Virus record (IMG/VR): IMGVR_UViG_3300028829_005657
Coordinates: 1-24,547 of that record
Direction: 5' to 3' (one strand)
DNA length: 24,547 bases
DNA from: a virus
The notes beneath the pieces were generated by a model. That model saw only the letters and a program-made list of their open reading frames with translations, made no database searches and was not told where the DNA came from. A program made the position numbers and the translations under genes. Below, one piece after another: positions 1,985 to 19,030 of the stretch; within the stretch, counting starts at the first letter, position 1, and every line of letters begins with the position of its first letter.

Positions 1985-2392
1985 CTAAATTAAATATGAG
2001 ATTACTGTGGCTACCACAATTGCGGTTAGTCCTAATACAATACGTTTTCTGAATTTTCTTGCTTCATAATCAACAGAGGTAACAAGTAAATCTGTAATGA
2101 ATTTATTAAGTATAATATTACGACTAATACCATAGCTATCTTCATTACTATACATACCTTCTTCCTTACATAGTGTTGTATAAAACGCTACCCTGTGTTC
2201 ACCATCAGGTGAAGCAACTGGATATACATAATCACCTGAGAAGTGTGGTTTACCTACAAGCTGAGCTGAAAGTTTAAATCTATTGTGTAACTCAACATCA
2301 CTAGTATGTTTATGGATATTTTGACAAATACCTACTTTATTATCTAAGTTATTTGCTAGATGGTTTGCTAGTGCTTCGTATTTATTTTTCAT
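1985..2392 (-). CDS. Tail-anchored member of a four-member early paralogue family (135 aa)
   Basis: It begins MKNKYEALANHL, exactly like the neighbouring 136-residue protein (MKNKYERMAYEL). Family features: GICQNI at residues 21-26, a SPDGEH block at 61-66, and DSYGISRNIILNKF at 86-99, the local form of the YGRRR motif. Residues 118-134 form a C-terminal membrane helix after a basic stretch (RKFRKR), so this is probably a tail-anchored membrane protein with its body in the cytoplasm. AAGGAA precedes the start. The first 50 bases of the gene are also clearly alike at nucleotide level to the upstream paralogue, indicating local duplication. The family layout (GIC motif, then YG..R near the C terminus) is seen in phage proteins of unknown function. 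Confidence 0.7.
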   Translation of the reverse strand: MKNKYEALANHLANNLDNKVGICQNIHKHTSDVELHNRFKLSAQLVGKPHFSGDYVYPVASPDGEHRVAFYTTLCKEEGMYSNEDSYGISRNIILNKFITDLLVTSVDYEARKFRKRIVLGLTAIVVATVISYLI

Positions 2393-2401
2393 TGGTGTTC
2401 C

Positions 2402-2812
2402 TTAAATTACAAATATTGCTGTTATCATTAACAGACCAACTAAACCGACTGTTTTGATGGTTGAGATAGTACGCACATACTCATCTGACTTCTTATACAA
2501 AGTAAGTATTAAAGACTGCGTAACCTTATGTCTATTCCTGCATGACTCTAAAGACAAGTCATAGAAATCACGTGCCTTATACGACTTCATAAATGCATCT
2601 GCAGGATGCTCACCGGGTGACTTGATAAAGAATAATGAATCAAGTGAGAGCAGTAATAACTTACCTGCTTCCTCTTTTGCTAAGTCTGTAAACACTGCTT
2701 TATCACCTAAGTTATACTGGTTGCAAATCTTAGACATGTTAGAACACAACGAATTACGAGTATCTAAGTTGTGTTCTAATTCATACGCCATGCGCTCATA
2801 TTTATTTTTCAT
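2402..2812 (-). CDS. Tail-anchored member of the same paralogue family (136 aa)
   Basis: I choose the ATG at 2812 (MKNKYERMAYEL) over a TTG at 2830. AAAAGG lies nine bases upstream of the ATG and the paralogue starts at the same residue. Shared features are the N-terminal block, SLCSNM in place of GICQNI, SPGEHPADAF, and LESCRNRHKVTQSL in place of the YG..R motif. Residues about 118-135 (GLVGLLMITAIFVI) form a C-terminal membrane helix. It overlaps the upstream two-helix membrane protein gene by 11 bp. Divergence from the family consensus (loss of YG, loss of GI) suggests it has drifted in function. No activity can be assigned. Confidence 0.7.
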   Translation of the reverse strand: MKNKYERMAYELEHNLDTRNSLCSNMSKICNQYNLGDKAVFTDLAKEEAGKLLLLSLDSLFFIKSPGEHPADAFMKSYKARDFYDLSLESCRNRHKVTQSLILTLYKKSDEYVRTISTIKTVGLVGLLMITAIFVI

Positions 2813-2999
2813 GAGGTGTAACCTTTTCAATGAACACAGCTATCATGTAATAGACTGTTGTAATTGAGTAAGCAACCAAGAAGTATTTAGCTAACTTGAT
2901 TGGCTGACTACTATATAATTCTAGTGGTGTAACACTAAGAATGAGGAGCAGCACTATCGTTGTAGATAGTGCCGTAATTAATGAACTTACCTTACTCAT
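2802..2999 (-). CDS. Small two-helix membrane protein (65 aa)
   Basis: Two hydrophobic segments, about residues 7-24 (LITALSTTIVLLLILSV) and 37-56 (AKYFLVAYSITTVYYMIAVF), with a basic N terminus. I chose the ATG at 2999, which overlaps the stop of the previous gene as TAATG, a layout used repeatedly in this operon. A TTG 15 bases further up is possible but less likely. It ends 11 bp inside the next gene. No family recognised. It lies immediately before the two tail-anchored paralogues, so a joint membrane function is conceivable but only inferred from position. Confidence 0.6.
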   Translation of the reverse strand: MSKVSSLITALSTTIVLLLILSVTPLELYSSQPIKLAKYFLVAYSITTVYYMIAVFIEKVTPHEK

Positions 3000-3361
3000 T
3001 AATGAAACACACAAGGTTCATCGAATGTGTAAGCACCACTACATACATCACAAGGATGCCAAGTGGAATACACATCTACGATGACATCTACATTGCTGTT
3101 ATGCCAACGAGATGCTTCATCACTTTCCATTACTAAATCCTGTAGTAATAAGAAATCATCATCACTAAGGTCACGAATAGCATCAACCTCAGTAAGCAGA
3201 TTGGTTTGCTCAAGAGTGAGTAAAACCGATGCTTTGGTTTGTTCAGTCAAGTCATAAATCTTACTGACTATTGCTACCTGTGCATTGCCTAAAGCAGCAA
3301 CACCATTTTCGATAGTGTTACAGTTAGATTTATACAGGTTTAACAATTCTTGAATCTTCAT
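2999..3361 (-). CDS. Hypothetical protein with Cys/His-rich C terminus (120 aa)
   Basis: The first 85 residues look helical and acidic (for example DAIRDLSDDDFLLLQDLV). The C terminus carries HPCDVCSGAYTFDEPCVFH, where a CxxC pair, a further Cys and flanking His residues could bind one zinc ion. AAGGAAAT precedes the ATG, and the leader-hairpin repeat at 3394-3404 lies 33 bases upstream. The stop overlaps the next start as TAATG. No family recognised. The putative zinc site is at the extreme C terminus, which is unusual for a classical zinc ribbon, so binding is a guess. Confidence 0.6.
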   Translation of the reverse strand: MKIQELLNLYKSNCNTIENGVAALGNAQVAIVSKIYDLTEQTKASVLLTLEQTNLLTEVDAIRDLSDDDFLLLQDLVMESDEASRWHNSNVDVIVDVYSTWHPCDVCSGAYTFDEPCVFH

Positions 3362-3393
3362 AAATATTTCCTTAAAGTTAAATACTATAACCC

Positions 3394-3405
3394 GTGCGAA
3401 GCACT
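3394..3405 (-). repeat. Leader hairpin repeat GTGCGNAGCACT, copy 2
   Basis: GTGC GAA GCAC, one base after the stop codon of the 3407-3769 gene and 33 bases upstream of the start of the 2999-3361 gene. The 12-mer is identical to copies 1 and 4. No U-tract follows on the minus strand, so it does not look like a terminator. Confidence 0.6.
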
Positions 3406-3406
3406 G

Positions 3407-3769
3407 CTAAGACTGGCTCACGTCTTCACGTAAGTTATCTAACATAATGTTATACACGGCATGTCTTCTACGCCCATATTCAGTAGTACGGTTCCATAAA
3501 TTGTTACTATTAACAGCGGTGATATAGGCTGTATGCCCATCATCACCACCAGCACCATCCCAAGGTTTAATGGGGAATGTATCGCATGATGGTTCATCGT
3601 ATCCGTAACCTGATTGCTTAATGGCATTGCGTAAATGAGTATGCAAATACACGTACTCATCATCGTCCTGATGTACTTCACCTATATGGTGACAAATACC
3701 ACAATCTTTATTTAAAGGTACATCTACAAACCGTTCGGCTATATCTGCTTTTATTTCTTTACTCAGCAT
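3407..3769 (-). CDS. Soluble member of the early paralogue family (120 aa)
   Basis: Family motifs: CGICHHIGEVH at residues 23-33, then SNNLWNRTTEYGRRRHAVYN at 88-107. The same pieces occur in the 113-residue protein at 4208-4549 (GICAVL, then DNLWNINTPYGRRRILVY). There is no membrane helix, unlike the two paralogues downstream. A GGAG ribosome binding site is seven bases from the ATG. The start overlaps the end of a frameshifted remnant at 3759-3862, which itself resembles the C terminus of this family. Proteins of this layout are common in phages and lack a known function. An out-of-frame ORF at 3439-3681 is a shadow. Confidence 0.7.
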   Translation of the reverse strand: MLSKEIKADIAERFVDVPLNKDCGICHHIGEVHQDDDEYVYLHTHLRNAIKQSGYGYDEPSCDTFPIKPWDGAGGDDGHTAYITAVNSNNLWNRTTEYGRRRHAVYNIMLDNLREDVSQS

Positions 3770-3862
3770 TACGTAACTCCATTAAATAATCATTAAGATG
3801 CTCATAGACTTCACAACGTAAGTTGCCATTGCTTGCTTATATAAATCACTATTAAATTCCAT
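3759..3862 (-). pseudogene. Frameshifted small gene, possible remnant of the paralogue family
   Basis: A good ribosome binding site (AAAGGGAAAG) precedes an ATG at 3862 that opens a 26-codon ORF, MEFNSDLYKQAMATY..., ending at 3782. A second frame, open to 3759, reads LRCEVYEHLNDYLMELRNAE before a stop that overlaps the next gene's start. That segment resembles the C terminus of the 4208-4549 protein (VYKELCEYLEQLNAG). One inserted base near codons 13-15 would join both into a 34-residue protein. It could be a decayed paralogue, a sequencing error, a programmed frameshift, or two unrelated frames. The evidence is short. Confidence 0.4.
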
Positions 3863-3872
3863 AACTTTCCCT

Positions 3873-4127
3873 TTAAGCTAATGCATCAACTTCACTGTAT
3901 AAAAACAAGTATTCATAGCTAACAGCTATGTACCCTTCACCCTCTAAATACTTACCATTTGTACCTTCTTGTAAAAGAATACAAGGCACACTCTCTTTAG
4001 TAATTGGGTCATAATTAGTAACTTTACTTACTAGACGATACACAGTTCCATTAGCATCACTAACTTCTATAATTACAGGTCTGTTAGTAATAACTTTAAT
4101 CATCTGATTAAGTGAATTTATATTCAT
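3873..4127 (-). CDS. Hypothetical protein (84 aa)
   Basis: A soluble, probably beta-rich 84-residue protein: alternating hydrophobic residues in RPVIIEVSDANGTVYRLV and a C-terminal YIAVSYEYLFLY. This suggests a small barrel or sandwich fold, but no family is recognised. AAGGAAT sits about eight bases before the ATG. The leader holds copy 3 of the hairpin repeat, 46 bases upstream, within a longer inverted repeat. It belongs to the leftward operon between two members of the paralogue family. Function unknown. Confidence 0.6.
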   Translation of the reverse strand: MNINSLNQMIKVITNRPVIIEVSDANGTVYRLVSKVTNYDPITKESVPCILLQEGTNGKYLEGEGYIAVSYEYLFLYSEVDALA

Positions 4128-4152
4128 GGTTTATTCCTTAATAAAAATAGTG

Positions 4153-4190
4153 TCAAACAAATACCACGCTAAGTGCGCAGCACTGTTTGA
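4153..4190 (-). repeat. Leader hairpin repeat, copy 3, inside a longer inverted repeat
   Basis: The core at 4173-4184 is GTGC GCA GCACT, differing from copies 1, 2 and 4 only at the central base. Around it TCAAACA (4153-4159) pairs with TGTTTGA (4184-4190). The outer stem shares one base with the inner one, so the two structures compete or stack. It lies between the stop of the 4208-4549 gene and the start of the 3873-4127 gene. Confidence 0.55.
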
Positions 4191-4207
4191 TTACACAAAG
4201 GGTTGGA

Positions 4208-4549
4208 TTAGATACCTGCATTTAGTTGTTCAAGGTATTCACAAAGTTCTTTATAAACAAGAATTCTTCTACGACCATATGGAGTGTTTATATTCCATAA
4301 GTTATCGTTGCTATGGAATGCATGTAAGGCACTTAAACCGCTACTAGGCACATCAGATATAGGATACAAAGGTAGTCCTGAGTACCAACCTTTATCTATT
4401 AAGAAGCTATACATTCTGGCTTTTAATAAAGACTCAGTATTTGATGATATGTCACCTTTAAGATATGCATCCTGTAACACAGCACATATACCTAAACACA
4501 CACTTTTATGAGTAAAGGCGATAACTAAAGTCTCTGGTACAACTGTCAT
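4208..4549 (-). CDS. Soluble member of the early paralogue family (113 aa)
   Basis: I place the start at ATG 4549 (MTVVPETL), which has AAGGAA at ideal spacing. A GTG at 4597 would run through the leader hairpin and is unlikely. Family motifs are CLGICAVLQDA at residues 18-28, WYSGLPLYPISDVPSS at 55-70, and NLWNINTPYGRRRILVYKEL at 83-102. The WYSG..YPI segment matches the FSGDYVYPV segment of the 135-residue paralogue, tying the soluble and tail-anchored members together. No catalytic signature is apparent. The family is recognisable in other phages but has no function I know. Confidence 0.7.
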   Translation of the reverse strand: MTVVPETLVIAFTHKSVCLGICAVLQDAYLKGDISSNTESLLKARMYSFLIDKGWYSGLPLYPISDVPSSGLSALHAFHSNDNLWNINTPYGRRRILVYKELCEYLEQLNAGI

Positions 4550-4586
4550 ATTTGTATTCCTTTTAATTAAATGAATTTCACCTCTT

Positions 4587-4598
4587 GTGCGAAGCACT
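4587..4598 (-). repeat. Leader hairpin repeat GTGCGNAGCACT, copy 4
   Basis: GTGC GAA GCAC, 38 bases upstream of the start of the 4208-4549 gene. It is identical to copies 1 and 2 over 12 bases. It marks the left edge of a 340-base stretch without a gene. Confidence 0.6.
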
Positions 4599-7138: not shown

Positions 7139-7627
7139 ATGAATAATGAGCTGTGTATTGGAACCAAACAAGTACTATGTACTGCAATGACTCGCCAACA
7201 ATATAATGATTATCGTGGTTGGGTTATGCCAGAAGATGAGACTGATGATGCAGGTTACTTAGTTGAGTATGTTGATGGCGGTGAAAGTAATCACCCAAAC
7301 CATAAAGGTTATATCTCATGGTCGCCTAGTGAAGTGTTCCATAATGCGTATCGTGGTGTTGAGTATGGCGTTTCTATGGGTGATGCTATTGTGTTGCTTA
7401 AAGAAGGTCACAAGGTTGCTCGTAAGGGCTGGAATGGTAAAGGTATGTTTCTGTACTACGTACCTGAAAATATTTACCCTGCACAAACAGAAGTGGCTAA
7501 AGCTGCGTTTGGACCATATGTTTCTTATCGTGCCTACATAGCAATAAAATCTGTGGATGGTGATGTTGTACCTTGGGTCGCGTCACAGTCAGATTTACTA
7601 GCAGAGGATTGGGTACTGGTTAAGTAG
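7139..7627 (+). CDS. DUF2829 (Tad2-type) protein with fused N-terminal domain (162 aa)
   Basis: Residues 77-162 carry the DUF2829 signature: YGVSMGDAIVLLKEGHKVAR, then KGWNGKGMFLYYVP, and the closing AEDWVLV. DUF2829 includes Tad2, phage proteins that bind the glycocyclic ADP-ribose signal of Thoeris defence and so block it. The first 72 residues form another conserved module (AMTRQQYNDYRGW, then GYLVEYVDGG, then GYISWSPSEVFHNAYR), which I recall as a frequent partner of DUF2829. A sponge function here is inferred from family. Not all DUF2829 proteins have been shown to bind signals. It is the last gene before a terminator and shares a message with the gp49/66 gene. Confidence 0.8.
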   Translation: MNNELCIGTKQVLCTAMTRQQYNDYRGWVMPEDETDDAGYLVEYVDGGESNHPNHKGYISWSPSEVFHNAYRGVEYGVSMGDAIVLLKEGHKVARKGWNGKGMFLYYVPENIYPAQTEVAKAAFGPYVSYRAYIAIKSVDGDVVPWVASQSDLLAEDWVLVK

Positions 7628-7951: not shown

Positions 7952-8116
7952 ATGATTTCTCGTAATTTAATTAGTAAACCCATTAAGGTAAACTTACTGG
8001 CATCACTAATTGTAAATAAAACTACAGAATTTAAGTGGTACGATTCTGTCACAAAACTAGTTAGCTGTAGTGATAAATTAATACAGTGCAACGAGGACTT
8101 AATACTATGTATCTAG
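7952..8116 (+). CDS. Small hypothetical protein (54 aa)
   Basis: This 55-codon ORF fills the space between the beta-rich protein and the SGNH protein. The ATG is one base after the preceding stop (TAATATG) and the ORF overlaps the next gene by 10 bp. Upstream GGCGG is only a weak ribosome binding site, so expression probably relies on coupling. The product begins MISRNLISKPIKVNLL and has four cysteines in its last third. No motif recognised. Without a strong start signal it could be a chance ORF, but the tight junctions on both sides favour a real gene. Confidence 0.45.
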   Translation: MISRNLISKPIKVNLLASLIVNKTTEFKWYDSVTKLVSCSDKLIQCNEDLILCI

Positions 8117-9354
8117 TAAATATGGTTTGTGGTGTGAACTACACTACCGAACTTATTAAAGAGAATATCAATGCGCTTATTGCGCAAGATAACACGCCAA
8201 TCAAACAACGCTTTACTGAAGCTTTAGCTGCCGATGAAAAGTACACTTACATCGTTACAGGAGATAGTACTCGTAGTAGTGGTGAGCTAGATTCAACTAT
8301 CTACTACGAACCACAATTAGCGAAGATAAACTTTGAACCATATAACAATGCTAGCGGCGGACAAACAGCTTTATGGTGGGCAAGTAATACTGGTAACTCT
8401 ACAGTACAAGAAGCTATAGATAATACCCCAGGCACAGGAAGTACAACTATTCTTGAAATGTCTTTAGGTATTAATAAATCTAGTAGAACAGTTGCAGAAG
8501 TTAAGGCTGATATTATTGCAGGACTTACGACATACTTAACAGCAAAGCCAGACACACTAATAATCTTTGTATCACCTAATGAGACTGGTACAGATATTAA
8601 TGATGAAATGGATGCTATGTATAAAACGCTTCCTGCTGAGTTTGCTGATTCTGTATACGTCAGTGGTAAGTATGCTACTACAGATGTGCACCTTAATGAT
8701 GACTTCTACCTTGACTTTACGCACCCAAATTTTAATGGTTTGCGTCGTTTAGTTAATTACATTTTTAGTCAAGTGTTGCCTTTAAAAGCAGCCATGACTA
8801 TGACTATGGAAGATCAACCTATTTTGTTACCTACGGGTTCTTTACCTTTTACAGTACAAAATGGTAACTGGTATAAGGGCGGTACTACAGAAACTCCTAT
8901 ACTGCGCTTTGACTCAAGCAAGGCTGATAGACGAGCCACAACGCTAATTGATGTTGAGCCAAATTTTGTGATCAAGTTAGATACTGGCGGGGATAACTCA
9001 AGTTATTACTTTGCTGATGACGATAACAATTTTATCTCTTCTGGTTTTGCTTCGTATCATGACGGCGCTGATGGGGCTTTTAGATCTGTAACCGTTCCAT
9101 TAGGTGCAACTAAGATGGGTTACTCATTTTCAAATACTGGTGATGATTGGGACGCTAGTGGCAAAGTACCTGTTATAGAGTACTTAGTAACGCCTTTGGT
9201 TTACAAAACACAAGTACAAGTAAATGAAGGTTTACCTGTATCTTTACCTTATGCAATGACACCTTTATCTATTGATGCACAAGGAAACGTACCAAAAGAA
9301 GGTGAGATACAAATAGGGCAAAGTGACGGCACTTGGTTGTGGGGTACTTTGTAA
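8107..9354 (+). CDS. Stand-alone SGNH/GDSL-type esterase with C-terminal beta domains (415 aa)
   Basis: ATG 8107 is chosen because GAGGA lies nine bases upstream. A GTG at 8086 is less likely. Residues about 45-212 have the SGNH hydrolase blocks: GDS at 52-54 (nucleophile Ser54), SGGQ at 83-86, SLGIN at 119-123, and DFTHPN with Asp203 and His206 completing the triad. The C-terminal half holds beta-type segments including IKLDTGGDNSSYYFADD and ends GQSDGTWLWGTL. From about residue 30 onward it is closely related to the C-terminal 380 residues of the fibre protein at 12545-14572. It lacks that protein's N-terminal attachment region. It probably removes acetyl or similar esters from surface polysaccharide. 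How it joins the particle is unclear. Confidence 0.75.
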   Translation: MYLVNMVCGVNYTTELIKENINALIAQDNTPIKQRFTEALAADEKYTYIVTGDSTRSSGELDSTIYYEPQLAKINFEPYNNASGGQTALWWASNTGNSTVQEAIDNTPGTGSTTILEMSLGINKSSRTVAEVKADIIAGLTTYLTAKPDTLIIFVSPNETGTDINDEMDAMYKTLPAEFADSVYVSGKYATTDVHLNDDFYLDFTHPNFNGLRRLVNYIFSQVLPLKAAMTMTMEDQPILLPTGSLPFTVQNGNWYKGGTTETPILRFDSSKADRRATTLIDVEPNFVIKLDTGGDNSSYYFADDDNNFISSGFASYHDGADGAFRSVTVPLGATKMGYSFSNTGDDWDASGKVPVIEYLVTPLVYKTQVQVNEGLPVSLPYAMTPLSIDAQGNVPKEGEIQIGQSDGTWLWGTL

Positions 9355-11840: not shown

Positions 11841-12545
11841 ATGTTAGTTAGTGACATATTAGAACACTTGGCTTATGGGGAGTTAGCGCACTTATCTATA
11901 GGTGGTGATGACACCCAAACAGTTACTCAGCCAGACCAGTACGTACAAGTTATACCTGCTATTAATGCAGCCTTAGATGCTTTGCATGCACGCTTTGAAT
12001 TGCGATTTAGTAATGTGCTATTAAAGCAGGTATCAGGTGTTACCACTTACCACTTAAAAAGTGATTATGCTTTAAGTACTATAAGTACTAAACCAAATAA
12101 GTACATTATAGATTCTTCAAGCGCACCTTTTACCGATGACATTATTCGTATAGATAGAGTGGTGGACGCGTGTAATAAACCAGTATTCATTAATAACGAA
12201 TCATTTTGTTCGTCAGTAATGTTACCAAGCTTCAATACTATTGAGATTCCTGAGACTATTCAGGACACAATGTACAATGTAATTTATCAGGCTAAACACC
12301 CGAAAATTAGACTTGAAGGTGATGACATTGAAGGGCAAGAAATAAATTTACCTATACAATTCACGGAAGCTTTATTGGCTTACATAGGTCATCGTATTTA
12401 CAAGAATCGTAAATCATTGGCTGGGGAATCCCAGAGTAATAATTACTACTCTATATACCAAAATGAATGCGCTAGATTAGAAAGTAAAGATACTATTAAT
12501 CTAATATCTAAAGAAATGAAAAATACTGATGAGGGTTGGTGCTAA
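11841..12545 (+). CDS. Probable head-tail adaptor / tail tube-type connector protein (234 aa)
   Basis: Features typical of phage adaptor proteins that dock on the portal. There is an N-terminal helical part with VIPAINAALDALHARFELRF at residues 37-56, a beta part with GVTTYHLKSDYAL, and a late helical LPIQFTEALLAYIGHRIYKN around 180-200. The last is the familiar pattern in which an adaptor ends with a helix hairpin. AAGGTAA precedes the start. Its stop overlaps the fibre-gene start as TAATG, consistent with sequential production of adaptor and fibre. The exact role (adaptor, stopper, or other connector) cannot be settled by sequence reading. Confidence 0.55.
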   Translation: MLVSDILEHLAYGELAHLSIGGDDTQTVTQPDQYVQVIPAINAALDALHARFELRFSNVLLKQVSGVTTYHLKSDYALSTISTKPNKYIIDSSSAPFTDDIIRIDRVVDACNKPVFINNESFCSSVMLPSFNTIEIPETIQDTMYNVIYQAKHPKIRLEGDDIEGQEINLPIQFTEALLAYIGHRIYKNRKSLAGESQSNNYYSIYQNECARLESKDTINLISKEMKNTDEGWC

Positions 12546-14572
12546 TGGGTATTATTGCAATTAGTTGTGATGACGACAAAGAGTGTGGTAGTAAGATAGC
12601 GGAATCACTTGAAAGAATGAATAGTGATTTCATTGGCGGTTTCGTTACAGAAACAGAAGGCAGCCGAGTACTGCGACCAAAAAAGGGAACTACAGAAGAA
12701 AATAAAAATTTTATAGGTATGGAAGGGGAACTTACTCTTGATGTTGAAAAGTGGGAGATCCACTTACATGATGGAGTGACACCCGGAGGTGTTGTTATTG
12801 GTGGTTCGGGTGGTAGTGTTTTAGTGCCTACTTATGCGGACTTCTTACTTATGGACGAAGAAGCTTTAAAAGATATTAGTGTGGTTACGCTAGGTAATTT
12901 TAAAGACGATGATGGTCTTGCTAATGTGCTTATAAAGTATGGTTCAGAGTGGTTGTTTGCTGCTGGTGAATTGCATATCAGGGAAGAAGACGTAGGCGAG
13001 TGTGTATTAAAAGTACCTTCTTATATTATTTATACAATAAATAATAGTAAAGAACGTTGGACTATGATTTCAGAGAACATGGAAGGTCAGGAGGGTTTAG
13101 GTGCTTTTGATGCTGAAGGTGAGTATGACCTCGATGTTCGTTACAACAAAAATGGTGATGAGTATGTTAAAGATAAGTACCTTACTTACTCTGACTACCC
13201 AGAACCAACAGAAGCTGATTTTTACACTGGTTTAGAAAATGAAGTTATACCAGTTAGAAGCACACCTATTCATGCACCATTGTACGAAGGTGAGCGACTA
13301 ATTAACCCTAACACTGGTGAGTACTTTGTTGCCCTGGGTACTTCTACAGCAAAAGACTGGAAAGTAATAAGCGGTGCTGTAGATGACGGTGATGTTGGTG
13401 GCGGTACAGAAATAGTAACCACTGCTATCAAACAACGTTTCCTTGATGCCTTAAAGTCTGAGACACCTTACACCTATGTAGTTACTGGTGACAGTACACG
13501 ATTAAGTGGTGAGGTTGATTCCTTAGATTACTATGAACCACAGTTAGCTAAGATAAACTTTCAAGCTTTAGAAAATTCTAGTGGTGGTCAAACAGCAGGT
13601 AATTGGAGAAGTAATACCGGTAACTCTACCCTGACTGAAGCAATAACACGTACCCCCGGAACAGGCAGTACAACGATATTAGAAATGTCGTTAGGTATTA
13701 ACCACAGCGGACAGACGGTAGATGAAGTGAAACAGGATATTGTAAATGGACTCAATACCTATCTAGCTTCAAGACCTAATACTTTAATTGTATTTGTATC
13801 ACCTAACGAAACAGGTGCATCGGACAATGATGAGCTTGATGCTATGTACAAAACATTACCTTTAGAATTTGAAGATAGTGTTTATGTTAGTGGCAAGGCA
13901 GCAACCAAAGCCGTACATTTAATGGACGAGTATTACTTGGATTTCACGCATCCAAATTATAATGGTTTACGAAGATTAGTTAATTATATTTTTAGTAATG
14001 TGTTACCTGAAGAATCTCGTATGCTTATGACTATGGAAGACGAAGCTAAGCTTTATGCGCCATCACCTTTAACTTTTAGTGTGCAAGCAGGTTCTTGGTA
14101 TAACGGAGGTGCAGCTAGTAATATATTGCGCCTGAGTACTACGACACCAGAACGTAGAACCACTACTATTATCACAGGGCTAGAAGCTGGTTATACTATT
14201 AAGCTAGACACCGGTGGTGATAATAGCAGTTATTGGTTTGCTGACGACAATGACATCATTGTAGCTAAGGGTAGCGCTAGCTATCACGATGGCGTTAATG
14301 GTGCATACCGTTCTGTAGTAGTGCCTGAAGGTGCGACTAAATTTGCATTTGATTTTGCCGTAGATGGTGTTGCTTGGGATGCATCAGGTAAACTACCAAT
14401 TATAGATTACTTGATTGTAGACACTGATTATTTAAACCAGAAAGACATTAATAAAGGTAACTTCATTGCGCTCCCTTATGAAGTAAGTACAGTTATTGAT
14501 GCTAATGGTTCATTACCAAAAGTTGGTGAGTCACCTGTAGGTCAAGGCGACGGTACTTGGTTATGGGCTTAA
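12545..14572 (+). CDS. Tail fibre with SGNH/GDSL-type esterase domain (675 aa)
   Basis: ATG 12545 overlaps the previous stop (TAATG) with GAGGG upstream. Residues 60-85 contain GELTLDVEKWEIHLHDGVTP, the HDG.TPGG signature common near the start of tail fibres. Residues 90-285 include linker and beta modules (for example EYFVALGTSTAKDW at 259-272). The esterase domain has GDS at 315-317 (Ser317), SGGQ at 346-349, SLGIN at 382-386, and DFTHP at 466-470 (Asp466, His469). The C-terminal beta domains end GQGDGTWLWA. From residue 295 on it is strongly alike to the 415-residue protein at 8107. It probably binds and de-esterifies host polysaccharide during adsorption. Confidence 0.8.
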   Translation: MGIIAISCDDDKECGSKIAESLERMNSDFIGGFVTETEGSRVLRPKKGTTEENKNFIGMEGELTLDVEKWEIHLHDGVTPGGVVIGGSGGSVLVPTYADFLLMDEEALKDISVVTLGNFKDDDGLANVLIKYGSEWLFAAGELHIREEDVGECVLKVPSYIIYTINNSKERWTMISENMEGQEGLGAFDAEGEYDLDVRYNKNGDEYVKDKYLTYSDYPEPTEADFYTGLENEVIPVRSTPIHAPLYEGERLINPNTGEYFVALGTSTAKDWKVISGAVDDGDVGGGTEIVTTAIKQRFLDALKSETPYTYVVTGDSTRLSGEVDSLDYYEPQLAKINFQALENSSGGQTAGNWRSNTGNSTLTEAITRTPGTGSTTILEMSLGINHSGQTVDEVKQDIVNGLNTYLASRPNTLIVFVSPNETGASDNDELDAMYKTLPLEFEDSVYVSGKAATKAVHLMDEYYLDFTHPNYNGLRRLVNYIFSNVLPEESRMLMTMEDEAKLYAPSPLTFSVQAGSWYNGGAASNILRLSTTTPERRTTTIITGLEAGYTIKLDTGGDNSSYWFADDNDIIVAKGSASYHDGVNGAYRSVVVPEGATKFAFDFAVDGVAWDASGKLPIIDYLIVDTDYLNQKDINKGNFIALPYEVSTVIDANGSLPKVGESPVGQGDGTWLWA

Positions 14573-14636: not shown

Positions 14637-15935
14637 ATGGGTATATACAGAGCAAGTCCTAGTGGTTCAAACACTGGTGGTTCTTGGGCTAACTCAATGG
14701 GATTGGCTGAAATTAAATCTAAAATTTTAGACAGCACCGACAAGTTAGGTAAAGATGATGTTTTGCTTATAAGTAAAATAAAAGGCGAAAAAAGTAACAT
14801 AGATATAGATGACAGTATTCATACATATCAAGCCAATAGCGGAAGCAGCGAAGGTAAGTTACGTATTATAGGTGGTAGCGCCCCTTCACGTAATGCGGTA
14901 CTACCTACGAGAGATACGGCTCCTTACTTTTTAGGGGTTACACAGTATCCTTGGGAAAATACAGATAGTGATGGTGCTTTGGCTTTTTTTGTTGAATCTA
15001 AGCATACCGATATAACGTGCATGACTTTCTTTCACTTTAACAGCGCACTGTATATGCACTCTAATTCAGGCAGTAATAGACTTTCTGATATTAAAGTGTT
15101 TAACGCATCTACCGGTATATATATAGCTTCTACTAATGGTCCTGTAGTTGTGGATAATTTTAGAGCGAAGTACTTGAAGAAAGCTGGTATTCGTCTATAC
15201 GACAATGTTAAGGACGTTACAATTACTGATGCTAAGATTGATATGGCTTCGGTGCAAGGCGCGGCGTACCCTAATGCAATCACTTGTAACATTGCAGATA
15301 ACTTATACATAAGAAGTCTGTATGTTAAAAACTGTGGTTTCACTCAAAATAATACAGGGGAGATTATCGACAGTTATATTCAAGGTGATGGTATTACTAT
15401 TAATGCGGGTACTAAGCAGCGTATCTATGATAGTCACTTTCTAAATTGTGGCGACCGAGGTATTGATTGTAAAGGTGGGGATATGCGCGTAGTAGACTCT
15501 ACAATGAACACCTGTAAATACGGTGTTGGTGTATGGTCATACTCGTTAACCAATAAGCTGATTGGTTGTACTATTAAAAATACAAGAGCTTTTCGTGATG
15601 AAGGTGCTTGTGTGCAATCACAGGGCTATGTAAAAGTAATTGGTTGTAACATATATGGTGACGCGCAATCGTTTGATGAGCTTAGCTTGGATAGAGGTTC
15701 AGTGCTACGAACCAACATAGCTTACTCTTCTGATAATTCACGTATTGATGTTATCGGCGGTAAGATTTTGCTGGATGATGCTAGTATTACGCCTATTATG
15801 CGTTTTTATGCTACAGGCGACATTATCACTTTGAAGAACGTTATGATAAACAACAAGCTATATAATAAGGAAATAGTATTTGATAGAGCTGTTATGTCTG
15901 ATCGTATTTACTTAGAAGAATTGGATGCTATGTAG
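14637..15935 (+). CDS. Tailspike-like right-handed beta-helix protein (432 aa)
   Basis: The start YRASPSGSNTGGSWANSM resembles secreted and phage beta-helix proteins. From about residue 110 to 400 short repeats of roughly 20-25 residues occur: IKVFNASTGIYIA, FRAKYLKKAGIRLYDN, SHFLNCGDRGIDCKGG, STMNTCKYGVGVW, CTIKNTRAFRDEG. These G-I/V-x-V and N-C ladders are typical of a parallel beta-helix of the pectate-lyase type. No catalytic acid pair can be fixed by eye. It likely degrades or binds host polysaccharide. The N terminus lacks a recognised head-binding domain, so it may attach through the fibre before it. TGAGGTAAT precedes the ATG. Confidence 0.7.
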   Translation: MGIYRASPSGSNTGGSWANSMGLAEIKSKILDSTDKLGKDDVLLISKIKGEKSNIDIDDSIHTYQANSGSSEGKLRIIGGSAPSRNAVLPTRDTAPYFLGVTQYPWENTDSDGALAFFVESKHTDITCMTFFHFNSALYMHSNSGSNRLSDIKVFNASTGIYIASTNGPVVVDNFRAKYLKKAGIRLYDNVKDVTITDAKIDMASVQGAAYPNAITCNIADNLYIRSLYVKNCGFTQNNTGEIIDSYIQGDGITINAGTKQRIYDSHFLNCGDRGIDCKGGDMRVVDSTMNTCKYGVGVWSYSLTNKLIGCTIKNTRAFRDEGACVQSQGYVKVIGCNIYGDAQSFDELSLDRGSVLRTNIAYSSDNSRIDVIGGKILLDDASITPIMRFYATGDIITLKNVMINNKLYNKEIVFDRAVMSDRIYLEELDAM

Positions 15936-15981: not shown

Positions 15982-16076
15982 ATTCCTATATTTATATCTA
16001 ATACTTGCGTAACATAGCACCTCAGAGGTGTATTTCTCTGATCTGATAGAGGCAGGTAATCAAAATAGAGGTAAGT

Positions 16077-16379
16077 ATGGATTTGAATTTAATGTCTTTC
16101 ATTTGGGCAATTTTAATAGTACCTATTGGTGCATTAGCTAATGCTTGGAGTAAGCAGAAAGAAAAGATTGAAGCTCTTGCATTGGATAATGCCAACTTAA
16201 AAAAAGATGTTGAAATCATTCAGGCAAAGTTAACCGACATAGATGGTAAACTGGTTCCGCTTGGGGTTGACCTTCGAAAACTTAACGACACGATTTTGCG
16301 GGCTGAACTGGATTTAGAAAAAAGATTGCACAGCATGACTTTAACTAATCTTCAGCAGCATAATCACAACAAGGAATAA
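16077..16379 (+). CDS. Single-pass membrane protein with coiled coil (100 aa)
   Basis: Residues 4-23 (NLMSFIWAILIVPIGALANA) form one membrane helix. Residues 27-60 are a clear heptad-like coiled coil (KQKEKIEALALDNANLKKDV), followed by a second helical part. This N-terminal anchor plus coiled-coil layout is that of inner-membrane spanins, and some small holin-associated proteins also look this way. A lysis role is plausible because the lysis genes start 0.5 kb further on, but those are on the other strand. An alternative is a membrane partner of the receiver-domain protein, whose gene follows after only three bases on the same message. GAGGTAAGT gives a strong start. Confidence 0.5.
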   Translation: MDLNLMSFIWAILIVPIGALANAWSKQKEKIEALALDNANLKKDVEIIQAKLTDIDGKLVPLGVDLRKLNDTILRAELDLEKRLHSMTLTNLQQHNHNKE

Positions 16380-16382
16380 AAT

Positions 16383-16829
16383 ATGTGTAATGCGACTGTA
16401 CTTATTATTGATGATAGTCCTTTAGATAGGCGTGTATTCCTAGAAGCTTTTGAGCGTGCGGGAGTTAAAGCAATTGCTTTGGCTGATCCCACAAAAGCAG
16501 TGGAATATGCCCTAGAACATAAACCTTCATTTGTAGTATTGGATTTAGTTATGCCAGGCATGGATGGCTTTCAGGTTTGCACAGCCTTGAAGTCTAATGA
16601 AGTAACTAAGGACATTCCTGTTATATTCGTTTCTGGTAGTGATGACCCTGATAATCTAAGCCAATCGATACATTTAGGTGTTGTAGACTATATGCCTAAA
16701 CCAGTATCTTTAGATTATTTGGTTTCTCAGGTAATTAAACATGACATAGTTAGTGGCATTACACAGTTGATGCAACCTATGAAAGATGAAATGCGATCAT
16801 TCACTGAAAAATATAAGGACGGCATTTAA
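16383..16829 (+). CDS. CheY-like response-regulator receiver domain protein (148 aa)
   Basis: A complete receiver domain at residues about 4-120. The acidic pair is in LIIDDSP (Asp10, Asp11), and the phospho-acceptor Asp54 is in VVLDLVMPGMDG. The switch Ser84 is in IFVSGSD, and the conserved lysine Lys106 is in YMPKPVS. Every residue needed for Mg2+ binding and phosphorylation is present. The remaining 28 residues form a short helical tail with no output domain, so it should act by protein contact, as CheY or Spo0F do. No histidine kinase lies in the window, so phosphate would come from a host kinase or a phage kinase elsewhere. AAGGAATAA precedes the ATG. It is followed by a terminator. Receiver domains are rare in phages. 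Confidence 0.9.
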   Translation: MCNATVLIIDDSPLDRRVFLEAFERAGVKAIALADPTKAVEYALEHKPSFVVLDLVMPGMDGFQVCTALKSNEVTKDIPVIFVSGSDDPDNLSQSIHLGVVDYMPKPVSLDYLVSQVIKHDIVSGITQLMQPMKDEMRSFTEKYKDGI

Positions 16830-16835
16830 TTCCAA

Positions 16836-16862
16836 ATAAAAAAGCCATCCCGAAGGATGGCT
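16836..16862. terminator. Bidirectional terminator between convergent genes
   Basis: AGCCATCC / GGATGGCT, an 8 bp perfect stem, is closed on the minus strand by the stable TTCG loop. The minus strand then continues TTTTTTATTT, an excellent intrinsic terminator for the leftward lysis operon. On the plus strand AATAAAAAA precedes and TAATTTT follows, enough to end the receiver-gene message too. Confidence 0.85.
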
Positions 16863-16866
16863 AATT

Positions 16867-17424
16867 TTACAATTGTTTTACCCACGAACGAACAACAGGC
16901 AAACATATATCCATATTTCTATACTCAAAAAAAGCACTATGCCCATCTAAGTAATCACTGAAATCAAAGTTTTTAACTCGCTTATCTTCTGCACCATAGT
17001 TTCCCATGGCTCCCCATGCGTTAGGTACAATCAACTGAATAAACGGTACGTAATCCAAGAAACGAGCTACCTTAGTTGGTACGTCATGTTTAGTATGAAC
17101 CACACCTACATTAGTAATCGTATCTGGGAATACATAATCAGTCTTCAGCGCAGGGTTAATACAAACCAATGTTTTAATCTTGGCTCCCAACTCAGCAGCT
17201 AATACAGCAATAGCACAACCATTCGAATGTGCATAAACAGTACTTTCAGGATGCTGGTCTAAAAGCTCTTTAAGTTTTATGGCTTCACGTTTGTTGTATA
17301 GCAGTACAGAGGTCAAACCAAACCAACCATATACAAATAGATAGGTATTAGATAAACGCTTCTGTAAACGCCCTACAGTAGTCATTGGGTCACGTACATT
17401 GTAACCATGGATTAATATATTCAT
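16867..17424 (-). CDS. Alpha/beta hydrolase (185 aa)
   Basis: A compact alpha/beta hydrolase. The oxyanion loop is ILIHGYN at residues 3-9, and the nucleophile elbow is YAHSNGCA with Ser67 (A-H-S-N-G, a variant of GxSxG). Asp114 is in VHTKHDVPT and His162 in LDGHSAFFE. The full triad is present. No signal peptide. It starts inside the endolysin stop (ATGA) with GAGGTG upstream, so it is co-expressed with the endolysin as the last gene of that operon. Position suggests an esterase or lipase assisting lysis, in the way LysB does for mycobacteriophages. In a Gram-negative host the substrate would differ and is unknown. Confidence 0.75.
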   Translation of the reverse strand: MNILIHGYNVRDPMTTVGRLQKRLSNTYLFVYGWFGLTSVLLYNKREAIKLKELLDQHPESTVYAHSNGCAIAVLAAELGAKIKTLVCINPALKTDYVFPDTITNVGVVHTKHDVPTKVARFLDYVPFIQLIVPNAWGAMGNYGAEDKRVKNFDFSDYLDGHSAFFEYRNMDICLPVVRSWVKQL

Positions 17425-17891
17425 AGCTTCACCTCGAAATGAGGTGCATCCGTTAGGCTATTCCAGTTACCACCCCAAACTAGATGCACACCTAGTTCAC
17501 AAGCAGCAGCAAATAAGCATGTAGCAACAGCAGCTAAATTATCAAAGTCGTAATTAGTTTGACCATCAACATAGCAATAAATATCAATAGCTAAACCAGT
17601 TTGATGAGCTGACTTCTTAGCGTAACCATCCGCATTAGTAATAACTTTAAATGGGTCAACTACAGCGTACTCACTTGAACCTTTATCTTTGATAACCATT
17701 GAACGACCTTTACGGTACATATTGAATTGTTCATCAGTGGTTCGTTTACCTGAACTAACACCCCAATCAGGGCAGTGTAATTTACGAGTATTAGCAATTT
17801 CCATAGCGCGCGCTACTACTGATTTAATAATAGGAGCGCACGTATCTACCTTTGCTTGACTGTTTTTACTGAGGGAATATTCGCGATTCAT
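17421..17891 (-). CDS. Endolysin, M15-type L-alanyl-D-glutamate peptidase (156 aa)
   Basis: A Peptidase_M15_4-type peptidase. The substrate-binding SGKRTTDEQ is at residues 47-55. The zinc site is His96 and Asp103 in SAHQTGLAIDI with His151 in DAPHFEV. The probable catalytic acid is Asp148 just before it. The length is that of single-domain enzymes such as T5 Lys. It cleaves the stem peptide of peptidoglycan at lysis. There is no signal peptide, so it needs a holin to reach the wall. The start lies 26 bp inside the dNMP kinase gene, with only a weak AGAAG before the ATG, suggesting translational coupling. The stop overlaps the hydrolase start. Confidence 0.88.
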   Translation of the reverse strand: MNREYSLSKNSQAKVDTCAPIIKSVVARAMEIANTRKLHCPDWGVSSGKRTTDEQFNMYRKGRSMVIKDKGSSEYAVVDPFKVITNADGYAKKSAHQTGLAIDIYCYVDGQTNYDFDNLAAVATCLFAAACELGVHLVWGGNWNSLTDAPHFEVKL

Positions 17892-18595: not shown

Positions 18596-19030
18596 TTATT
18601 TTACGGATACTTGCGGTATGCGGATTTTGCGCTTAGCGCCACTAGCAAAAAGTAGTTCAACGTAGGCTTCTCTATCACCAGCCATCGTACCATTCATATC
18701 ATAGCCAGTAGAGTACCAACCTTCACTAGTCTCGTCTTTACTGCGCTTATCTCGCAGCTTAATTACTTCTTTAGTAAGTTTGTCTACTTTTGCCGACAAG
18801 GTAACTAAAATTTTTAACAGCTCTTGGTTAGATTCATTAGGTGCGGTAGGGGTAACTGCCACAGTAGGCGGTTTATTGTTAAGCGATTGTTTATGTAACT
18901 TAATATCGGTAGCGTACTTGCGTCTGAGTTGATGTACGGACATATCGCACATACCACTAATTTTTTCAGCAGTGCATTGCTTAGGGTCAGTGATATTTGA
19001 AATTATATCCAAGACGCTACTAGAACTCAT
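18596..19030 (-). CDS. Helix-turn-helix-like protein with coiled coil (144 aa)
   Basis: I place the start at ATG 19030 (MSSSSVLDII), which has GAGG upstream inside the preceding gene. An open frame to 19129 lacks a good start and overlaps that gene fully. Residues 20-42 (AEKISGMCDMSVHQLRRKYA) look like a helix-turn-helix. A Pro/Thr-rich linker follows, and residues about 70-98 are a coiled coil (LKILVTLSAKVDKLTKEVIK). The C-terminal 40 residues look beta-type and basic. No family recognised. It could be a DNA-binding regulator. The overlap of 11 bp with the MazG-like gene and 22 bases to the kinase show it is in that operon. Confidence 0.55.
   Translation of the reverse strand: MSSSSVLDIISNITDPKQCTAEKISGMCDMSVHQLRRKYATDIKLHKQSLNNKPPTVAVTPTAPNESNQELLKILVTLSAKVDKLTKEVIKLRDKRSKDETSEGWYSTGYDMNGTMAGDREAYVELLFASGAKRKIRIPQVSVK

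Follow-up and report, generated by a model that had tools for sequence, protein, structure and literature searches.

Results

A receiver gene and its neighbour in the late region of an N4-like phage

The stretch of viral DNA analysed here (24,547 nucleotides, IMG/VR record IMGVR_UViG_3300028829_005657; hereafter the window) belongs to an N4-like phage of the Schitoviridae type, probably a virus of marine bacteria. It encodes a terminase, an SU10/N4-type portal and a major head protein, which bears out the phage setting given in a preliminary description of the sequence. The gene at positions 16383–16829 (plus strand) encodes a stand-alone CheY-like receiver of 148 amino acids, identified by Pfam, alignment, AlphaFold2 and Foldseek. 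As that description had also stated, it directly follows a gene for a membrane/coiled-coil protein (16077–16379, plus strand; 100 amino acids), hereafter the partner. The partner stop codon and the receiver start codon are separated by three nucleotides (16380–16382, plus strand), both genes lie in the same frame, and the AGGA-type ribosome site of the receiver sits within the end of the partner gene. Partner and receiver are identical in L001, an independent 74.7-kb IMG/VR contig with 99.98–100% identity to the window over 18.2 kb. At position 18624 of the window, about 120 bases of L001 are missing inside a minus-strand open reading frame, reflecting either a natural indel or an assembly difference.

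A beta-helix tail protein (14637–15935, plus strand; PF13229, 7.6e-9) is encoded just upstream of the two genes. On the other side, the receiver gene converges on a minus-strand gene (16867–17424) for a 185-amino-acid protein that was recognised as alpha/beta hydrolase-like by inspection of its sequence (AHSNG elbow), that has no Pfam or PHROG match, and for which a role in lysis is possible. A terminator-like hairpin (AGCCATCC-loop-GGATGGCT, 16843–16862) lies between these convergent genes and a weak one (16017–16031, plus strand) 5’ of the partner gene, each identified by a consensus match only. An endolysin of the M15 peptidase type (17421–17891, minus strand; PF13539, 3e-11; phrog_465 endolysin, 1.6e-31) lies two genes beyond the receiver. 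The window yielded no separate recognisable holin between terminase and portal.

Three further features of the window were recorded. The protein encoded at 7139–7627 carries a C-terminal Tad2-like (anti-Thoeris) domain (PF11195, 4.1e-25). The tail-region proteins encoded at 8086–9354 and 12536–14572 share a block of about 384 amino acids at 62% identity, an internal duplication of a domain that resembles the SGNH/GDSL type. Finally, the putative early region on the minus strand (1985–4597) contains diverged small paralogues at 1985, 2402, 3407 and 4208, with pairwise E-values of 1e-3 to 1e-8.

The receiver is complete and lacks an output domain

Response_reg (PF00072) is the single Pfam domain of the receiver, covering residues 6–117 with an E-value of 4.7e-23 and 81.9 bits against a curated cut-off of 30.2. 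Pfam finds no output domain in the 148 residues, as in single-domain response regulators, and the protein is a complete CheY-like receiver, as originally proposed. Alignment likewise confirms that the phosphorylation residues Asp10, Asp11, Asp54, Ser84 and Lys106 are all present. The AlphaFold2 model (pLDDT 86) adopts the receiver fold of five beta/alpha units with an added C-terminal helix (131–143), and Foldseek matches it to many experimentally solved receivers, RR468, VicR and DivK among them, with TM-scores on the target of about 0.9. The tail beyond residue 117 is kept in phage homologues and is thus not featureless. A DNA-binding regulator of the PhoB or OmpR type was considered and rejected, because Pfam finds no C-terminal DNA-binding domain; the NCBIfam PhoB model reaches 62.8 bits against a cut-off of 296, matching the receiver part only.

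The partner is a constant companion of the receiver

The window partner consists of an N-terminal transmembrane (TM) helix followed by a long coiled coil and a C-terminal RLxxM motif. With no lysine or arginine before the TM helix and three after it, it is predicted to lie N-out/C-in, with the coiled coil on the cytoplasmic side. The positive-inside rule gives this same orientation for all partners and the opposite one for the Rz-like spanins of phages V22 and A5. Across loci, proteins of 83–125 amino acids with a single N-terminal TM helix and a coiled coil are encoded directly before the receiver, at a spacing of -11 to +4 nucleotides in the 12 pairs measured. An automatic rule, fixed after the positives had been seen, found such a gene at all 19 loci with the module, which represent about ten phage backgrounds, and, among 83 other receivers tested in the same way, at one. 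Judged by gene order, the partner gene is part of the receiver system, a point that the preliminary description had overlooked.

Core partners are related to one another (window against L010: 34% identity, E 9e-20; profile comparison: probability 89.7%, E 1.8e-6), while the V22 and A5 partners showed no match to them. Apart from one short match in a faecal record (E 0.6), partner homologues were found only adjoining receivers. An IMG/VR search with the partner returned the identical contig only, and its profile gave just two weak matches, in frames of about 490 amino acids, among 296 genomes of the host order. Matches to holins and spanins were weak (phrog_19508 holin, 2.3e-4; phiadh holin, E 0.004).

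Two assignments for the partner were rejected. It is not an Hpt protein, having no PF01627 match and, in the window and L010 sequences, no histidine in the aligned motif. Nor is it an Rz-type i-spanin: its topology is opposite by the positive-inside rule, V22 and A5 have separate spanins, and hhalign comparison with their Rz-like proteins gave probabilities under 4. As an aid to folding the two neighbouring genes together, a read-through fusion (TAA read as Q) was modelled; confidence was low at the TM helix and the junction, no usable interface emerged, and VIA-align matches of the fusion cover the receiver part only.

The two-gene unit recurs in phages of different morphology

Other phages carry the receiver as well, and its position recurs among them. 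Receiver and partner together were found in about ten phage backgrounds, which cover podo-, sipho- and myophages and include R8W/H4-4, R9Y, V22, A5, V19/R22Y and several IMG/VR contigs; every isolate that bears the unit is an Alteromonas phage. Among annotated phages, tblastn gave full-length matches of about 41–42% identity, tail included, in two very dissimilar groups, the siphophages R9Y1-3 and the podophages R8W and H4/4 (Foturvirus). Scans of IMG/VR and of genomes added L010 (55%), L127 (46%), L016, L041 and more R9Y-like contigs. More divergent relatives are those of the myophage V22, the schitophage A5, the IMG/VR contigs L141 and L142 and the schitophages V19 and R22Y; the V22 and A5 receivers share about 19–25% identity with that of the window. 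A scan of IMG/VR for the V19 type found nothing. These figures leave out many tblastn ‘phage’ matches in faecal or very large records that resemble bacterial DNA.

The eight core receivers group in a single clade (support 100/99). In one tree the phage receivers fall into three groups, and in a tree without the long rows the rest are joined with a support of 91; a shared origin of the V22/A5, V19/R22Y and core receivers would hinge on long branches. Phage receivers group apart from 55 bacterial receivers. Given that receivers are abundant in hosts, the gene might be a recent accidental acquisition or a decaying pseudogene, in which case absence from related phages and near identity to a host gene would be expected. 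This is not what we found, and we reject this origin as extremely improbable: the closest relatives are encoded by phages (55%, 46% and about 40% identity), the G+C content of the gene resembles that of its neighbours, and 395 genomes of one gammaproteobacterial order, searched without a positive control, contained no comparable match at E<=1e-33.

Lysis genes commonly lie beside the unit

In 6 of about 10 backgrounds, a recognised endolysin, holin or spanin is encoded no more than two genes from the unit. The lysozyme gene of R9Y overlaps the receiver gene, R8W/H4-4 (Foturvirus) has, two genes upstream, a gene annotated as a class II holin, and the L010 receiver directly adjoins a homologue of the A5 endolysin (E 2e-27). 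V22 presents the order papain-like amidase, partner, receiver, Rz-like spanin, lipobox o-spanin candidate and two-TM protein. The cassette of L141 is of this type, and in A5 partner and receiver precede the same Rz-like, lipobox and two-TM genes and then an annotated endolysin. V19, R22Y and L041, which stand for two more backgrounds, have a holin-like two-TM gene without a curated family match adjoining the unit, while L016 and L127 have no recognised lysis gene beside it. The preliminary description had suggested that the receiver could time lysis; a link to lysis genes is supported by neighbouring endolysin, holin and spanin genes across backgrounds.

Two sets of neighbouring genes merit separate mention. 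V22 gp31/gp32 and A5 gp12/gp13 (L132:5410-6281 and L133:7410-8305), published as hypothetical, look from their sequences like an Rz-type spanin overlapped by an Rz1-type lipoprotein, accompanied by a two-TM holin. DUF5675-type proteins are encoded within a few genes of the unit at L016:6398-6787, L131:7027-7422, L134:7045-7440 and L141:7315-7713, assigned by a Pfam match in L016 and L131 and by sequence likeness only in L134 and L141.

Tail genes precede the unit in most other phages. The receiver might accordingly be an accessory of a tail-fibre or host-recognition module that has moved along with receptor-binding genes: tail-fibre or chaperone genes lie before it in most backgrounds, and the A5 CheY-like gene has been placed, among hypothetical neighbours, in a host-recognition block common to A5, V22 and P24 (PMC10579305). 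We regard this as very improbable, because the genes downstream of it in V22 and A5 are Rz-like, Rz1-type and two-TM, and because the unit is present, too, in phages whose tail genes differ (Foturvirus, R9Y and the window). The interval between tail-fibre and lysis genes may nevertheless be a mere collecting place for accessory genes.

Catalytic residues are conserved in most, though not all, receivers

Of 13 receivers aligned, 11 retain all five catalytic positions, even where identity with the window receiver falls to 19–25%, which makes selection on phosphorylation likely. The dN/dS ratio is about 0.10–0.16 for close and moderately close pairs, a rough estimate with dS near saturation in several of them. 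Alignment shows that the V19 and R22Y receivers have lost the phosphoacceptor Asp and the Lys. As these two schitophages keep the protein, under purifying selection (dN/dS about 0.11), phosphorylation is not universal. The preliminary description had read the intact residues as a sign of selection on phosphorylation, and selection on a functional receiver is supported.

No histidine kinase domain (HATPase, PF02518) above cut-off and no Hpt domain (PF01627) was found in 11 phage records, some of them fragments, each of which contains exactly one receiver; one sub-threshold HATPase match in A5 was disregarded. A hybrid histidine kinase is thereby rejected, and the host must supply whatever phosphate the receiver takes up. 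The pattern fits a receiver that works with phosphate donors of the host in most phages and has become phosphate-independent in one lineage.

The V19 and R22Y proteins also bear on a different account, in which the receiver fold caps the membrane partner or serves it as an adaptor, independently of phosphorylation, as the soluble part of a co-holin or antiholin, and the catalytic residues are partly inherited. Both proteins are conserved without Asp54 and Lys106, and both retain the partner and the two-TM holin-like neighbour. We consider this account unlikely, given the retention of the catalytic positions in so many receivers of such low identity.

Discussion

The receiver at this locus is a real and conserved phage protein, and there is more to it than the preliminary description saw. 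Because the pair recurs mostly beside lysis genes in unrelated viruses, it may couple the timing of lysis to the condition of the host. We tentatively propose, at somewhat less than even confidence, that partner and receiver form a two-gene lysis-control module in which a membrane-tethered receiver tunes lysis to the phosphorylation state of the host. An inner-membrane anchor would hold the partner so that its coiled coil projects into the cytoplasm, as the charge rule predicts, and the receiver would be a soluble switch docking on this cytoplasmic part. The phosphate would come from histidine kinases of the host or from a small donor, for example acetyl phosphate. Phosphorylation would then alter the surface through which the receiver contacts the partner, or else the holin or the endolysin, and the altered binding would, via the partner, advance or delay holin triggering according to the energy or stress state of the host. 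Set against this proposal, the endolysin of the window lies two genes away on the opposite strand and no separate holin was recognised there between terminase and portal, L127 and L016 show no recognised lysis gene beside the unit, the receiver-like proteins of V19 and R22Y have neither phosphoacceptor Asp nor Lys, and the read-through model shows no interface.

The same residues and the same lack of a phage kinase would also suit an auxiliary gene that soaks up phosphate from host kinases or mimics a regulator of the CheY or PhoB type, altering chemotaxis, stress or phosphate responses. Published interpretations run in this direction: the CheY-like proteins A5 gp11 and V22 gp30 have been described as class II AMGs (PMC10579305, PMC7289586), and R8W g48 and H4-4 gp44, annotated ‘putative DNA-binding response regulator’, have been interpreted as PhoB (PMC8228385). 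A decoy, however, needs neither a membrane partner nor a constant lysis-gene setting, the receiver sits among late genes, the missing DNA-binding domain speaks against PhoB, and the pseudo-receivers of V19 and R22Y are unable to take phosphate at the usual site. The constant partner and the lysis-gene setting thus favour a dedicated membrane target over a decoy, which we judge improbable.

More broadly, phages of different families may share a device that feeds two-component signalling of the host into the timing of lysis, with a kinase-less receiver reading host kinases or acetyl phosphate and setting holin firing through its partner, independently of phosphate in some lineages. We advance this wider generalisation with considerable doubt. 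To our knowledge, lysis timing is well understood only in a few model phages. Direct input from host two-component signalling into phage lysis was not found in the literature searched. In the open-access literature, a scope outside which many journals fall, we found no publication that connects a phage receiver with lysis genes or with such a partner, and term searches of the R9Y and R22Y papers returned no mention of the receiver. Recognition of a recurrent receiver and membrane partner near lysis genes corrects annotations of single members as PhoB, hybrid kinase and host-recognition AMG. Since the module recurs in culturable Alteromonas phages, the question is testable with existing phage-host pairs.

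Comparison with known systems places the pair among several partial parallels. A5 gp11 and V22 gp30 share the architecture seen in the window, partner then receiver in the late region, and differ in interpretation: their neighbours, published as hypothetical, are read here as candidate spanins and a holin-like protein. R8W g48 and H4-4 gp44 share about 41% identity with the window receiver along its whole length, tail included, and have a partner upstream; by length and alignment they contain no DNA-binding domain, and their identification as PhoB is rejected.

Phage N4 delays lysis through its lysis cassette (gp60-63), in which gp62 and gp63 are small membrane regulators (PMC12642591), and so offers one precedent for the proposed module. 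The likeness lies in an N4-like phage whose small membrane proteins regulate lysis and lysis inhibition. The N4 lysis genes as described include no receiver, unlike the window, and the pinholin gp63 is anchored C-terminally whereas the window partner is anchored N-terminally. LytSR of Staphylococcus aureus (PMC4830213) also joins two-component signalling, an acetyl-phosphate route and a link to membrane potential; it includes a kinase, and its response regulator carries an output domain, whereas the window phage has no kinase and its receiver no output domain. Among bacterial single-domain regulators, CheY, Spo0F, DivK and EpsW have the same fold and catalytic residues as the window receiver and likewise no output domain, and EpsW, which acts directly on a membrane-bound enzyme, EpsZ, is a second precedent (PMC12802240). 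The window receiver differs from all four in being phage-borne without a cognate phage kinase, in its C-terminal helix, in its dedicated membrane coiled-coil partner and in its location near lysis genes.
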